Assembly (NCBI GenBank): GCA_902776305.1
Contig: CACYPS010000001.1
Location: forward strand, 309,025-373,024
Direction: 5' to 3'
Source: an uncultured Lachnospiraceae bacterium
Lineage (GTDB): Bacteria; Bacillota; Clostridia; Lachnospirales; Lachnospiraceae
Length of the DNA: 64,000 bases
Part shown: positions 3,074 through 64,000 of the stretch, in pieces
How positions within the stretch are numbered: the stretch's first letter is position 1
Layout: each line of letters starts with the position of its first letter
Translations under genes and position numbers: made by a program
The notes under the pieces: generated by a model
Databases searched by the model: none
Told to the model about the DNA's origin: nothing
The model's input: the letters and a program-made list of their open reading frames with translations, nothing else

Positions 3074-3145
3074 TTTTATTCTTCATCGCGCAATACTCGT
3101 GACGTAAGCCTATGATACGCGCGCAAAGTGATGCTCGTCTTCATC
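3074..3145. repeat. Dispersed ATTCTTCATCGCG element
   Basis: This stretch contains ATTCTTCATCGCGCAATACTC and, further on, a second TCTTCATCGCGCAAT. Its middle (gatacgcgcgcaaagtgatg) is the reverse complement of part of the copy at the right end of the window, so it is an inverted, partial copy of the same family. Confidence 0.6.
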
Positions 3146-3170
3146 GCGCAATATGTGTCCGTAATCTTTT

Positions 3171-18445: not shown

Positions 18446-18450
18446 AATTT

Positions 18451-18608
18451 GCTCCTCCAGGGTCAGGCGACCATGCTTGCATGGTTATCTGACCCGCCGA
18501 TCAAAGTTTGAAAGTTTACTTTCAAACTCGCTCCTCCAGGGTCAGGCGACCATGCTTGTATGGTCATCTGACCCGCCGATCAAAGTTTGAAAGTTTACTT
18601 TCAAACTT
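18451..18608. repeat. Tandem 79-bp repeat (2 copies) between recA and recX
   Basis: Units at 18451-18529 and 18530-18608 differ at only a few positions. Each unit holds two inverted repeats. GGGTCAG-GCG-ACCATGC pairs with GCATGGT-TAT-CTGACCC, with an internal loop, and GTTTGAAAGT pairs with ACTTTCAAAC around TT. The CTGGAGGAGC that serves as the recX ribosome site is part of the unit, so the second copy carries an orphan ribosome site with no start codon. Confidence 0.9.
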
Positions 18609-24719: not shown

Positions 24720-24810
24720 AACGATACCATAGTCTTTCTTTCACAGGTCTCCCTGTCACTGCATTTTCAGTCTTTCGCCGTCTGTGGGACGTATCTGTTA
24801 TCCATCTTTT

Positions 24811-24930
24811 GTGCGCCTCATTTTCCGACAGTTTTCGGCATGGCCTCTGTCTTATCCAGCCTGCTGTGCGCCTCATTTTCCGACAGTATTCGGCATGGCC
24901 TCTGTCTTATCCAACCTGCTGTGCGCCTCA
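24811..24930. repeat. 55-bp tandem duplication of the tlyA 3' end
   Basis: Two copies of a 55-bp unit (24811-24865 and 24866-24920) and ten bases of a third cover the last codons of tlyA and the spacer before nadK. The period is not a multiple of three. The duplicated copy therefore carries a second, unused set of tlyA C-terminal codons. Confidence 0.85.
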
Positions 24931-32049: not shown

Positions 32050-32088
32050 GATATTACTCCTTGTTCTTGTAATTACTATTTATTCTTC

Positions 32089-32140
32089 ATCGCGAAATCC
32101 TTATGACTTTAATCATAAGATCCGCACTGAAATGATGCCG
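32089..32140. repeat. Dispersed ATTCTTCATCGCG element
   Basis: TTTATTCTTCATCGCGAAAT is followed by the inverted repeat CTTATGA-CTTTAA-TCATAAG. This matches the layout of the element at 63008, where the second inverted repeat reads CTCATGACTT with AAGTCACGAG. It lies between gltX and ftsW. Confidence 0.55.
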
Positions 32141-43202: not shown

Positions 43203-43584
43203 AATCTTCTTCGTTCCGTACCTCGGATTCTCTGTCCTTCTGCATAACCTCATCAATCAGACGCGACATTTCCACACCGCGCTCGATTGAAGTATCCAGC
43301 TTGAACGTGATCTCCGGCGTATTGCGCATATTGAGCGAGTGAGCAAGCTCCCGACGAATGAACCCGGCAGCACTCCTGAGTCCTTCCATCGTATCCTTTC
43401 TGGCCTTTTCGTCACCCAATACGCTGATATAAGCCTTGCAGGTCTTTAGATCCGTCGCGACATTGACTTCTGTAACAGTCGTCATCATCGCGATTCTGGG
43501 ATCCTTAAGCTCCCGGATGATCGAGGAAAGTTCATGCTGAACTTCCTCGTTCACCCGGAGATTTTTCATACTGTTTTTTCTCAT
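43186..43584 (-). CDS. rbfA: Ribosome-binding factor A
   Basis: RbfA binds the 30S subunit and helps mature the 16S 5' end. The 132-residue protein has a KH-like fold with [35 protein letters not shown] and [24 protein letters not shown] (split). The ATG overlaps the infB stop (ATGA). It has an acidic C-terminal tail. Confidence 0.94.
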
Positions 43585-46500
43585 GTTCTGGGAACCTCGA
43601 CCATTGTATATGCCTCGACCGTATCGTCAATCTCAAAGTCGCCGAAATCCTTGAATACTAAGCCGCATTCATATCCTTCACGAACCTCTTTGACATCATC
43701 CTTAAATCTCTTGAGAGATGCGAGGGAGCCTTCATACAGCTTTTCTTCCCCGCGGAATACACGGACGCTGCAGTTTCTCTGGAATATACCGTCCTTAACG
43801 TAAGCACCTGCAATATTGCCGATTCCAGAAGCCTTGAAGATCTGACGGATCTCCGCATGGCCGAGAATCTTCTCCTCGTAGACTGCGGCACGCATTCCGT
43901 TGAGTGCTCTCTCGACATCTTCAAGTGCCTCGTAAATGACATTGTAGAGATGAACGTCGACCTTCTGTGTCTCCGCCATCTGTTTTGCCGTAGCATCCGG
44001 TCTTACGTTGAAACCGATGATGATAGCGTTGGAAGCGGCTGCAAGAGACACATCGGACTCATTAATATTACCTACGCCGCCATGGATGACCTTGACGACG
44101 ACTTCATCGTTCGAAAGTTTAAGCAGAGACTGCTTGACAGCTTCGACGGAACCCTGAACATCCGCTTTCACGACAATCGGGAGTTCCTTCAGCTTGCCTT
44201 CCTGGATCTGATTGAACAGATCGTCCAGAGACATCTGTGTCTTCGTCTCCTCAATAAGAGTCTTCTTTCCTTCGGTGACAAATGTCTGTGCAAATGCCTT
44301 CGCCTCCTTGTCACTGTTCAGAGCAACAAGGACTTCGCCCGCATCCGGAACGGATGAGAGGCCGATGATCTCAACAGGCATTGAGGGTTTCGCTTTTGTG
44401 AGGCGTTTTCCCTTCTCGTCTGTCATGGCTCTTACCTTGCCGTGTGCGCTTCCGCATGCAATAAAGTCTCCCTGCTTCAGTGTACCTTTCTGAACAAGGA
44501 TGGTTGCCACCGGACCGCGTCCTTTATCGAGCTTCGCCTCAAGTACGAGACCTCTTGCCTTACGGTTCGGGTTAGCTTTAAGTTCAGCCATTTCCGCTGT
44601 CAGGAGGATCATCTCAAGAAGGTTCTCGATACCTTCCTGGGTCTTGGCGGATACAGGACAGAAGATCGTCTGTCCGCCCCACTCTTCCGGAACGAGTTCG
44701 TACTCGGAGAGCTCCTGCTTTACGCGCTCGATATTTGCGCCCGGTTTATCGATCTTGTTGATCGCAACGATGATGTCTACCTTAGCGGCCTTGGCATGGT
44801 TGATTGCTTCCACTGTCTGCGGCATGACGCCGTCGTCCGCTGCTACAACGAGAACAGCAATATCCGTGGAGTTGGCACCGCGCATACGCATTGCCGTGAA
44901 TGCTTCATGTCCCGGTGTATCCAGGAATGTGATTTTCTGTCCGTGGACAGTGACCATATATGCACCGATGTGCTGTGTGATACCGCCTGCCTCGCGATCT
45001 GTCACATGCGTGTTGCGGATAGCGTCAAGAAGCGAAGTCTTGCCGTGGTCGACATGACCCATTACGCAGACAACAGGCGGACGCGGAACCATGTCCTTTT
45101 CCTCCTCAGCATCCTCGGCGAGAAGAGCTCCGATAACGTCCTCCTTCTCCTCCTGCTCTGCGATAATATCATATTCCATCGCAATTTCCTGAGCTTTCTC
45201 GAACGGGACCTCGTGGTTCACTGTGACCATCTGGCCTTTCATGAAGAGATCCTTTACGAGTGCAGTCGGTGCCATTTTCATAGCCTCTGCAAGTTCTCTG
45301 ATCGTAATTTTCTCAGGGATCTTGATCTCCGTTACGACTTCCTTGACCTTGGGCTGTTCGTTTTTCGGCTGGTTCTGCTGGAGAGCCTTCGGGATACGGT
45401 TGAACTGCTTCTTGCTCTGATTCGGACGTGAACCGAACTGGCTGTGCTTACCGTTCTCTCTTCTCTCTTCTCTGTTGCGATCATACTCTTTGCTGTTGTC
45501 CTTGCGGTGATCGCGGCTCGTCTTATGTGCAAGTGCACCGTCCCCTGCGGGTACCGGAGAACTCTTGCGCTGGCCGCCCTGGCCAAACGAAGTTCTGCCC
45601 TGACTGCTCTGACCGTCACGCCCGAACGGACGTCTCTCACCGCTCTGTCCGTCACGGCTTCCCGGTCTTGTACCGGCAGGTCTGCCCTGACCGTCACGGT
45701 TGAACGGGCGTCTCTCGCCGCTCTGTCCGTCACGGCTTCCCGGTCTTGTACCGGCAGGTCTGCTCTGACCGTCGCGGCTGAACGGACGTCTCTCGCCGCT
45801 CTGTCCGTCACGACCTCCCTGACGTCTCTCGCCGCCCTGACCGTCACGGCTCCCCTGGCGTCTGTCACCGCTCTGACCGTCGCGGTTATAAGGACGTCTT
45901 TCGCCACTCTGACCGTCGCGATTATAAGGACGTCTCTCGCCGCTCTGTCCGTCACGATTTCCCTGGCGTCTCTCGCCCTGACCGTCGCGGCCGCCCTGAC
46001 GTCTCTCGCCCTGACCGTCACGGTTCCCCTGGCGTCTCTCGCCCTGAGGACGGCTTGCCGTCTGGGAACTGCCGTCGCGCTGTGAGGGCTTCTGCCCTCC
46101 TGCTGTATTTCCGGTTCCGGCAGCGCGATTGTCTGCCGGTCTTGTTGACTCTCTCTGATCGGCTGCTTTTACAGTCTCCTCCTTCTTCGGAGCAGACGTC
46201 TTCGGAGCATCCTCTGTCTGGCGGGTCTTCTGATTCTGAGGAGCCTTCTCTGCCGGACTCTTTGTCTCCTCTACAGCTGTTGTATTCTTTACAGTGTCAG
46301 TTTTACCGGAATCCGCACCGGCAGCTTCGACTTTTGTATTCTCCGGGCTGTTCTCCGTCTTTACATCTGCGCCTGTTTCGGATTCCGTTTTGGGTTTCTT
46401 CTGCAGAGATCCGTTCGCATTCTGTGAGCGGAATACGCGCACAATACCCTTGCTCTTTTTCTTTTGCCCTTCCTCTGCTGCGGCTCCTTCTTTCTTGACA

Positions 46501-46697
46501 GCGAAAGCATCCGAAAAATCCGATGCTCCTCCGGTTTTACCCGGACCGAATCTGGAACGAACATTTTCTACTTCTCCGTCAGGCACGAGACTAACTGCGG
46601 TAATCGTCTCATATCCTTTGGCGCGCAGATATTCGACGACCGCTTTTCTGTCCGCTCCAACTTCTTTTGCAAGTTCGTGAACTTTGATTTTTGCCAT
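43581..46697 (-). CDS. infB: Translation initiation factor IF-2 with a long RDGQ-repeat region
   Basis: IF-2 is the GTPase that places fMet-tRNA on the 30S subunit. The 1,038-residue protein is longer than the usual 700-950. An N-terminal IF2N domain (about 1-50) is followed by a disordered Lys/Glu/Ala region and then twelve RDGQ units (about 226-363) of the type [12 protein letters not shown], then a second IF2N and the GTPase domain with G1 [14 protein letters not shown] (547-560), DTPGHEAF and [17 protein letters not shown]. The extra length is confined to the N-terminal repeats, so the core should be functional. Repeats cover 45609-46022 in DNA. Confidence 0.95.
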
Positions 46698-54079: not shown

Positions 54080-54130
54080 CGTTCTCCCTCCATCCAACAT
54101 CCCGGCACAGTCAGCCACGCTGCCGAAACT

Positions 54131-54210
54131 TTCGTTCATCGTGTGATACTCGTAACGTGAGTCTATGATACTCGCGTAATGTGATACTCATCTTTATCGT
54201 GAGTATATTG
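54131..54210. repeat. Diverged dispersed element near the gene at 53612
   Basis: The sequence repeats GTGATACTC and CGTGAG motifs and contains ATCTTTATCGTGAGTAT. This is a decayed version of the TTCTTCATCGCG...ACTCGTGAC elements. It fills most of the space between the gene at 53612 and tRNA-Glu. Confidence 0.4.
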
Positions 54211-54580: not shown

Positions 54581-54733
54581 CACACTGAAACCGGTTTATT
54601 GCCTTTCTCTTGAAGATGCAGCTGTTACACACTGAAACCGGTTTATTGCCTTCCTCTTGAAGATGCAGCAGTTACACACTTAAATCGGTCTGTTGCCAGT
54701 CTCCTGAAGACGCTGTCATCTCACGCTCAAATA
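54581..54733. repeat. 47-bp tandem repeat, 3 copies plus a partial fourth
   Basis: Units start at 54581, 54628 and 54675, with a partial fourth at 54722 that reaches the deacetylase stop. Units 1 and 2 are nearly identical (CACACTGAAACCGGTTTATT is shared); unit 3 is more diverged. There is no open frame through it. Confidence 0.85.
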
Positions 54734-62030: not shown

Positions 62031-62066
62031 GACTGAGGTCACGAGTATTGCGCGATGAAGAATAAA
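62031..62066. repeat. Dispersed GTCACGAGTATTGCGCGATGAAGAAT element (half copy)
   Basis: This half-element equals the right arm of the palindrome at 63008-63082, ending CGCGATGAAGAATAAA. It lies just upstream of the aroD -10 (TATAAT, 62097-62102). Confidence 0.6.
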
Positions 62067-62919: not shown

Positions 62920-62925
62920 AGATTC

Positions 62926-63083
62926 AAGAACGCGTCGGCGTTCTTGCCGCGACGTGCGCGGCGCGTAAGCGCCTTCCACTGCGCACGTCTGCGATCCGCC
63001 GGAGGCTTTTATTCTTCATCGCGAGATTGTACTCGCATATCTCATGACTTAAGTCACGAGTATTGCGCGATGAAGAATAAAGC
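62926..63083. repeat. Dispersed structured repeat, copy B (complete)
   Basis: The copy starts with hairpin AAGAACGC-GTCG-GCGTTCTT, then GACGTGCGC...GCGCACGTC enclosing GGCGC-GTAA-GCGCC, then ATCCGCCGGAGGCTTTT, and ends in a 75-bp imperfect palindrome (63008-63082) with arms ATTCTTCATCGCG and CGCGATGAAGAAT and centre CTCATGACTT/AAGTCACGAG. It fills the space between aroD and aroK and may end aroD transcription. Confidence 0.88.
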
Positions 63084-63195
63084 GTCTTTTGCACATTCAA
63101 GTATTTCTCATTGTTTTGAGCATCTGAAGAAATAAAGAAACAGCATTATATTCGCTTTTCACTGCGTAATAATCCTTTAAATCGGAGGAATCAAT

Positions 63196-63825
63196 ATGAA
63201 CTATCACGATGAAAGCATGAATATTATCGAGTCATGCAATGATAAAAGCATCGAAACCATCACCGAAAAATTAAGGTATCTCTTCCCGAAGAACATCGTG
63301 CTCATAGGCTTCATGGGCGCCGGTAAAAGTTCTCTCGCCTCCTATCTGGCAGAGCAGTTCAACATGAGGACAGTAGAGACCGACCGGGAAATCGTGGAAC
63401 GTGAAGGAATCGGCATTCCCGAAATATTCGAACAGTACGGGGAAGTATACTTCCGTGATAGGGAAAGCGAGGTAATACGGGATCTGGGATCAGATTCTCA
63501 GACGGTCATTTCAGCGGGTGGCGGTGCCGTATTGCGAGATGAGAATGTTGAAAATATGAAGGCAAACGGTATCATCGTTCTCCTCACAGCGACTCCGAAA
63601 GCAATACTGGACCGGGTTAAGAGCAGCACCGAAAGGCCCTTGCTGAACGGAAAAATGAATGAAGATTATATCGCCACACTGATGGAGAAGCGGAGATCGA
63701 GATATGAAGATGTCGCGGATCTGATTATCGATACCACAGATAAGACCATTCCGGAAGTATGCGAGGAGATGATCCTGAAACTCCCGGCGATAGTCAATCA
63801 GACTAAACAAACCGGTCTTTTATAA
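63196..63825 (+). CDS. aroK: Shikimate kinase
   Basis: This kinase phosphorylates shikimate at O3. The 209-residue protein has Walker A GFMGAGKSS (38-46), ETDREIVE with the shikimate-binding Asp, ISAGGGAVLR and ERPLL in the lid. The roughly 30-residue extension before the kinase fold is unusual, but GGAGG lies seven bases before the ATG, and the in-frame Met8 has no ribosome site. It follows aroD across the repeat and is probably expressed with it. Confidence 0.93.
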   Translation: MNYHDESMNIIESCNDKSIETITEKLRYLFPKNIVLIGFMGAGKSSLASYLAEQFNMRTVETDREIVEREGIGIPEIFEQYGEVYFRDRESEVIRDLGSDSQTVISAGGGAVLRDENVENMKANGIIVLLTATPKAILDRVKSSTERPLLNGKMNEDYIATLMEKRRSRYEDVADLIIDTTDKTIPEVCEEMILKLPAIVNQTKQTGLL

Positions 63826-63840
63826 TTATAGTCTGACTTC

Positions 63841-64000
63841 AAGAACGCCTCGGCGTTCTTGCCGCGACGTGCGCGGCGCGTAAGCGCTTTCCACTGCGCA
63901 CGTCTGCGATCCGCCGGAGGCTTTTATTCTTCATCGCGAGATTGTACTCACGATGAAGCCAGATTTCACTTTGCGCGCGTATCTCACGACTGAAGTCACG
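63841..64000. repeat. Dispersed structured repeat, copy C (cut by the window edge)
   Basis: The first 90 bases are almost identical to copy B (AAGAACGC-CTCG-GCGTTCTT onward, through CCGCCGGAGGCTTTTATTCT). The right part then differs: an extra TTTCACTTTGCGCGCGTATC segment occurs, which is also found inverted at 3111-3140. It starts directly after the aroK stop. Confidence 0.88.

Follow-up and report, generated by a model that had tools for sequence, protein, structure and literature searches.

A short, structured repeat recurs in the DNA analysed here, a stretch of 64,000 nucleotides (nt) from the genome of an uncultured Lachnospiraceae bacterium, which is called the window in the following. 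A sequence-only reading of the window's plus strand had listed three copies of the repeat (A, B and C), all of which exist; the boundaries it gave were too short, and the copies are now placed at about 583-749 (A), 62923-63076 (B) and from 63838 onwards (C). Copy B is a full-length element of the short form (154 nt), assigned to the minus strand as the strand with an IS605-type left end and delimited by the ends of its subfamily, by nested insertions and by empty sites. Read on the plus strand, the element consists of a terminal TTC or ATC, hairpin H1, stem S2 around S3 with an unpaired TTCC, the motif CTGCGATCCGCCGGAGGC, a long or short hairpin H3, and finally H4, whose long closing stem encloses an inner hairpin. 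In copy B, H1 (AAGAACGC-GTCG-GCGTTCTT, 62926-62945) lies at what is the right end on the minus strand, which there ends in ...TTGAA. It is followed by S2/S3 (GACGTGCGC / GCGCACGTC around GGCGC-GTAA-GCGCC, plus the unpaired TTCC, 62951-62989), by the near-invariant motif on the plus strand (62989-63006), which includes the short-form H3, and by H4 with its closing stem TTTATTCTTCATCGCG / CGCGATGAAGAATAAA (63008-63081); H1, S2/S3 and H4 are assigned to no strand. Long forms have a hairpin of about 45 nt at this place. The minus strand of H4 carries a left-end hairpin, CTCGTGACTTAAGTCATGAG (63041-63060), which is two changes away from the left-end hairpin CTCGTGACTTCAGTCGTGAG of tnpA/tnpB elements, and directly 5' of it the putative guide GL = AATA (63061-63064). 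The target pentamer (63077-63081, minus strand; ATAAA on the plus and TTTAT on the minus strand, with CL = TTAT) is identified as pre-existing flank by an empty site in a related genome, G022. The five outer pairs of H4 in copy B link this target to an internal copy of its complement. When copy B was folded as single-stranded DNA together with its target, the z-score was -8.75 for the plus strand and -6.9 for the minus strand.

The element encodes no protein and is too short for a transposase gene (154 nt in copy B, 92-178 nt for the units in the genomes RGIG2458 and RGIG4369), and its ends, TTC/ATC and GAAGA/GAGA, form no terminal inverted repeats. Copy C (63838-64000, minus strand) is a partial element of subfamily I that is cut short where both contig and window end. 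The diverged copy A (minus strand), situated between secG and rnr (gene names assigned by eye), has another type of H4 and is followed by ATATA. Four truncated remnants complete the set: a left-end part of H4 with the target ATAAA at 62031-62066 (minus strand) and, in opposite orientation on the plus strand, H4 parts at 3075-3146, 32079-32121 and, in decayed form, 54128-54210.

Seven matches to the H1 pattern were found in the window (the three copies on both strands and one other), compared with 0.14 expected in shuffled sequence. The arms that had been reported, with their matched changes, hold as claimed: H1 is AAGAACAC/GTGTTCTT in copy A and AAGAACGC/GCGTTCTT in copies B and C, and hairpin 2 is AGGTG/CACCT in copy A and GGCGC/GCGCC in copy B. 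The replacement of a G-C by an A-T pair in H1 is real but confined to copy A (1 of 46 distinct rows), and the main covariation resides in S2, S3 and H4, between subfamilies and between species. Two main subfamilies occur in the window's genome, with S2 either GACGTGCGC/GCGCACGTC or GCCGCGCAT/ATGCGCGGC and H4 either TTTATTCTTCATCGCG or TTTAATCTCTGACGC; the elements of G007 and G024 have further, different stems. Among 47 copies, 10 of 23 stem pairs had changed on both sides. In a larger alignment (94 matches from 90 searched loci, 89 distinct rows) the number rose to 19 of 23, with 96.6% of cells pairing (79.0% when shuffled) and a covariation score of 0.433 (0.135 when shuffled, at most 0.052 with slid partners); as this alignment was fitted to the model, its counts lean towards the model. 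Two repeat copies with the same flanks (L154 and L229) differ in that one has the long, partly masked H3 and the other the short form, which suggests that the H3 hairpin was lost or gained in place.

With up to three mismatches the H1 pattern occurred at 106 places of the 4.08-Mb genome and nowhere for a reversed control. The covariance-model search of this genome and its relatives that the sequence-only reading had proposed was carried out with a model built from the 47 copies (R1), with at most 115 candidates scored per genome, so that copy numbers are lower bounds. Both further copies and covarying stems were found: there were at least 112 matches in the window's genome, at least 99 in G022 and at least 90 in G005, 56 in G018, 28 in G007 and fewer in six others. 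The model detected no element in the other 14 genomes examined of the genus, nor in 16 genomes of other families. In an even sample of the order, for which 16 candidates per genome were scored, 2 of 295 genomes were positive, namely the window's genome and G161 from another genus of the same family. An exact 19-nt motif occurred in at least 115 stretches of a named genome collection, mostly, judging by titles, metagenome-assembled genomes of ruminant Lachnospiraceae and Eubacterium; some of these matches (e.g. L227, L246, L253 and L295) have no covariance-model match and are probably due to chance. An exact 21-nt pattern of the element had no match in viral contigs, and Rfam gave none over the element in the window or at four related loci at gathering or E-value thresholds.

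Insertion without target duplication

The aroD-aroK region is present in G022 at 81-82% identity and lacks copies B and C there. The site of copy B reads CTGAAGA-ACAAA in G022 and CTGAAGA[element]ATAAA in the window's genome. RGIG2458 and RGIG4369 carry 15 and 10 copies, respectively, and comparison of the joined flanks of nine copies between them yielded three contiguous empty sites, one insertion shared by spacing (L346) and five uninformative cases. The clearest pair is the filled site CACGAATTAGTA[element]AATGACGTTTTC and the empty site CACGATAA-ACTGACGTTTTC; the second is TTGTTATGA[element]GTTGTACTATCATTTTACC and TTGTTATA-ATTCTGCTTACATTTTACC, and the third is more diverged. These empty-site alleles indicate that the pentamer on the H4 side predates the element and that the target was not duplicated. 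Where one copy is nested in another (L006, L229/L154 and L284), joining the flanks rebuilds, by eye, the end of the older element including ATAAA or TTAAA; a fourth nested copy (L197) can be read in two ways, and in a fifth (L049) the right end is lost. Insertions are thus lineage-specific, and the H4-side pentamer (ATAAA, TTAAA, AATGA and others) represents a pre-existing target. Sequence comparison, the basis of these statements, shows insertion without duplication into a target that lies outside the element.

A classical MITE, moved by a DDE transposase via terminal inverted repeats, would also be short and non-coding, and the arms of H4 do resemble 16-bp inverted repeats. Both arms are nevertheless located at one end of the unit, the actual ends (TTC...GAAGA) are not inverted repeats, and the nested and empty sites show no target duplication; this explanation, already disfavoured, is the least credible of those considered. 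The same sites bear on the idea that two independent elements, an IS605-like H4 and an H1-S2 unit, merely happen to be adjacent in many places. Solo H4 remnants and left-anchored copies with H1 only do occur, as such a pair would produce, but empty sites and nested insertions cover H1 through H4 as a single unit and the order of parts was constant across the loci inspected, which makes independent elements very unlikely.

Left end, guide and candidate transposase

A tnpA/tnpB element present in RGIG4369 and RGIG2458 has the left-end hairpin ATTCTCGTGACTTCAGTCGTGAG. On the strand opposite to the one read before, the inner hairpin of H4 corresponds to it with few changes, and the tnpA/tnpB element and the main repeat subfamilies have the same distance of 16 nt from cut to hairpin; only 2 of 20,000 shuffled H4 sequences match the tnpA/tnpB hairpin with at most five changes. 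The choice of strand in the sequence-only reading has to be reversed: the transposon-like left end and the guide are on the opposite strand, where the H1 described there forms the 3' end. Hairpins of the same left-end type precede an open reading frame (ORF) with a HUH motif in five genomes (G047, G049, G058, G059 and G065), and the window's own genome has fragments of the tnpA/tnpB element, with a variant hairpin, at two contig ends. The TnpA of this element is a Y1 transposase (Pfam 5.6e-40; NCBIfam IS200/IS605 transposase) with 2xm3, 2xma and 2xo6 as closest PDB entries, which we take to be ISDra2. Its partner ORF has no Pfam match and is TnpB-like, scoring under the cut-off of guided_TnpB and over that of TIGR01766. 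Within the genus, a search for Y1 genes was positive for 9 of the 11 genomes with the element and for 5 of the 14 without it (Fisher one-sided p = 0.027, kinship ignored); Y1 genes were also present in all 10 genomes chosen via loci, two of which repeat G018 and G047.

IS200-type elements were met at two further loci. One lies within H4 of a repeat copy (L197, 1063-1539, G051:C341) after TTTAT, the subfamily-I target; it was ruled out as the autonomous parent, since the same insertion sequence has unrelated flanks in contig C51. There (L143, G000:C51:28000-33000), a 507-aa ORF, by eye a group II intron reverse transcriptase of the LtrA type, directly precedes an IS200-type tnpA broken at its 5' end, as though the intron had inserted into tnpA. 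Both IS200 copies share a structured tail of several short hairpins 3' of tnpA.

In IS608 the last base of the guide pairs with the last base of the target, consistent with the letters AAAG and TTAC. This target, TTAC, pairs with the tetranucleotide guide AAAG 5' of the left hairpin, and the pairs include A+16:T-3 and A+17:T-4 (PMC5934647). In the repeat, guide and target occur in the combinations AATA/TTAT (21), AATT/TTAA (13), GATT/TCAA (12) and GATA/TCAT (2), and the tnpA/tnpB element itself has CATT/TGAA (5). From 117 hairpin matches on either strand, 68 left ends were classed as element or IS605; the three expected guide pairs all hold in 54 of these, compared with a mean of 14.1 and a maximum of 26 in 2000 shuffles. 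When all 325 position pairs were ranked without preselection, the two variable guide pairs, (-19,-4) and (-17,-1), came first and second, although the guide classes are few and related and the ranks are consequently not independent trials. The top-ranked pair corresponds to A+16:T-3 of IS608; the equivalent of A+17:T-4 is nearly constant here and tests little. For a second hairpin type the rule holds in 10 of 13 copies at a fixed spacing of 14 nt, on which this count rests, a scan with floating spacing being no test. Copy A does not fit the left-end rule by eye, and exceptions elsewhere are, also by eye, mostly single copies with shifted spacing or decay. In addition, the target pentamer and the internal pentamer of H4 paired at a mean of 4.23 of 5 positions in 107 copies (2.15 when shuffled); 80 of 187 anchors without a complementary arm were excluded, and the fixed window includes one arm base in some subfamilies. 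H4 thus holds the complement of its own target, which could therefore be read twice.

Hairpin match, spacing and guide/target covariation are, like the mode of insertion, shown at the level of sequence. In our judgement the repeat is very probably a non-autonomous, PATE-like single-stranded DNA transposon of the IS200/IS605 kind (PATE, palindrome-associated transposable element) that is mobilised in trans by a Y1 TnpA. The transposed strand, the minus strand of the window for copy B, would read, in order, the target TTTAT, the cut, a 16-nt stretch with the guide AATA as its last four bases, the left-end hairpin, the far arm of H4, the motif AGCCTCCGGCGGATCGCAG, S2/S3, H1 and finally the right end ...TTGAA. 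The left-end hairpin would be bound in trans by the Y1 (HUH) TnpA of a resident IS605-type element, which would cut 3' of the target selected by the guide, with GL1 pairing with CL-3, GL2 with CL-4 and GL4 with CL-1. An IS605-type TnpA as the mobilising enzyme, the single-strand route and the mode of right-end cutting are what we infer from these features.

If the repeat were spread, like REP/BIME-type repeats, by a domesticated TnpA-REP (RAYT) with specificity for the H1 or S2 hairpin together with a conserved tetranucleotide, this would equally account for many intergenic copies whose hairpins have covarying stems and conserved unpaired motifs, and Y1 ORFs of RAYT-like length and score (our reading) do exist in the element-bearing genomes G003, G012 and G023 and in others. 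Yet a RAYT-like Y1 also occurs in element-negative G016 (the element search excluded G041-G057), and the copy-richest genomes G000, G005, G018 and G022 have only IS-type or fragmentary Y1 matches. Since, moreover, the units are about 150-230 nt long with ordered ends rather than palindromes of 20-50 nt, and the left end follows IS605 guide geometry, we consider a RAYT origin highly improbable.

Several observations weigh against mobilisation by an IS605-type TnpA. The right end lacks the expected layout: in 82 distinct right halves (86 in total, from 94 rows) no IS605-like hairpin was found at up to five changes, and 4-mers that obey the rule within 16 nt 5' of H1 were present in 10 of 86 right ends, close to shuffled sequence (mean 8.6, maximum 14). 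The model leaves the conservation of the S2/H1 half across genera unexplained. Independent guide classes are few, with 6 of 19 distinct guide/target combinations obeying the rule fully; other position pairs covary as well, such as -13/-11 at rank 3, because subfamilies differ; and an IS200 with a type-2-like hairpin (L199) fits the rule at no spacing tried. The empty sites come from genomes that are only about 82-87% identical. Finally, no Y1 transposase match was obtained in G007 (28 copies, 91% complete) or G024 (5 copies, 82%), negatives that are qualified by the frequent location of multicopy insertion sequences in assembly gaps.

Right half, decay and gene context

The right end of the tnpA/tnpB element obeys the guide rule by eye (GAAG-hairpin-TCAC). 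At one locus (L415, G059:C59:14500-18300) the insertion point of a tnpA/tnpB element coincides with the TTGAA (H1) end of a repeat copy, from which it follows that the right end of the repeat doubles as a target. It is conceivable, if rather unlikely, that the conserved right half (motif, S2/S3 and H1), whose end coincides with that of the element, has a new function of its own as a module and is not filler. It might act as a scaffold of the omega-RNA type, with read-through into the flank, and recruit TnpB in trans for defence of the insertion, or the right end might be recognised by structure alone; H4, with its second target complement, would then be nature's equivalent of the longer target pairing built into IS608 by engineering.

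Copies have lost sequence at one side or the other or have deletions within H3 and H4. One-sided stem changes, counted within subfamilies in the 40 and 28 copies for which 58 or more core positions are identical, gave G.U to A.C ratios of 49:30 in subfamily I, 18:18 in subfamily II and 29:22 in H1; for private one-sided changes the ratios were 9:5 and 8:8, with many other mismatches besides. Given the excess of G.U in subfamily I, some selection may act on the strand read initially. Of 111 copies in the window's genome 96 were intergenic, six lay in crude ORFs and nine were skipped. The orientation of the intergenic copies relative to their neighbours was even (<E< 27, >E> 26, >E< 22, <E> 19; two with one neighbour only). 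No transposase-like ORF was present among the 25 largest clusters of neighbouring ORFs, and the largest of these consist of translated repeat sequence, ordinary genes and orthologues.

A structured RNA that acts in place, e.g. as a stabiliser in the 3'-untranslated region, a terminator or a regulatory RNA, and that is repeated by chance would be in line with the stable folds, with the strong covariation of H1, S2 and S3 across species and with the G.U excess over A.C in subfamily I (49:30). It does not account for the absence of a gene-strand preference and of an Rfam match, the broken pairs in decaying copies, the missing G.U excess in subfamily II and the orthologous sites without copies, and appears hardly probable. 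Decay and even orientation fit mobile DNA with fold-selected source copies better than site-by-site RNA. Of the two proposals made initially, a structured 3'-end RNA is not supported, in view of the even orientation to genes, the decay in place and the inconsistent preference for G.U over A.C; a MITE/REP-like mobile element is borne out by the further copies and their matched stem changes, with a fold that matters and plausibly serves as the substrate of single-stranded transposition.

The window contains other repeats. Tandem repeats of 33, 36 and 42 nt (45604-46047) lie within a 1038-aa ORF on the minus strand (43581-46697), a 47-nt unit is repeated three times in tandem near a tRNA gene (54581-54721), and two-copy tandem repeats of 79 and 55 nt are located at 18446-18603 and 24810-24919, the first of which includes a palindrome.

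Relation to known mobile elements

Our searches of the open-access PMC literature showed no description of this repeat family. The PATEs of Haloquadratum walsbyi (PMC3119063) resemble the repeat in several ways: they lack a transposase gene and terminal inverted repeats, do not duplicate the target, and have a short targeting sequence and a near-terminal palindrome related to IS605-type elements, and other mobile elements are inserted in some copies. The repeat differs from the PATEs described there in being bacterial and in that only its left palindrome matches IS605, whereas the right one does not; furthermore, its H1/S2/motif half is long and conserved, with covarying stems that differ from species to species, and its H4 holds the complement of its own target. 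As it fits most features of PATEs without a matching right palindrome, we call it PATE-like and not a full member. With IS608 and ISDra2 of the IS200/IS605 family it shares a left-end hairpin at a fixed distance from the cut, a tetranucleotide guide 5' of this hairpin, the same pairing geometry and a target that is kept at the left flank (PMC5934647); unlike these, it has no internal tnpA/tnpB and no recognisable guide-hairpin-cleavage-site layout at the right end. REP/TnpA-REP systems (PMC8266576) are likewise high-copy, mostly intergenic hairpins linked to Y1 enzymes, but the repeat is several times longer, has an IS605-type guide and no linked RAYT was found. The REP class, defined by a palindrome of 20-50 nt, a GTAG-type tetranucleotide and an associated tnpA-REP, does not include it by unit size, nor is there a recurrent neighbouring transposase ORF. 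The bcr1 repeats of the Bacillus cereus group are presumably comparable as small, dispersed, structured repeats with mobile behaviour.

The repeat raises the question of why a hitchhiker retains a large folded right half. Between its subfamilies guide and target covary naturally, which supports an IS608-type pairing rule for these elements, independently of crystal structures and engineering, and suggests that non-autonomous elements may shift their target preference through changes of the guide. With about 100 copies in some genomes, the family provides a ready set of guide/target pairs for testing the retargeting of Y1 enzymes.
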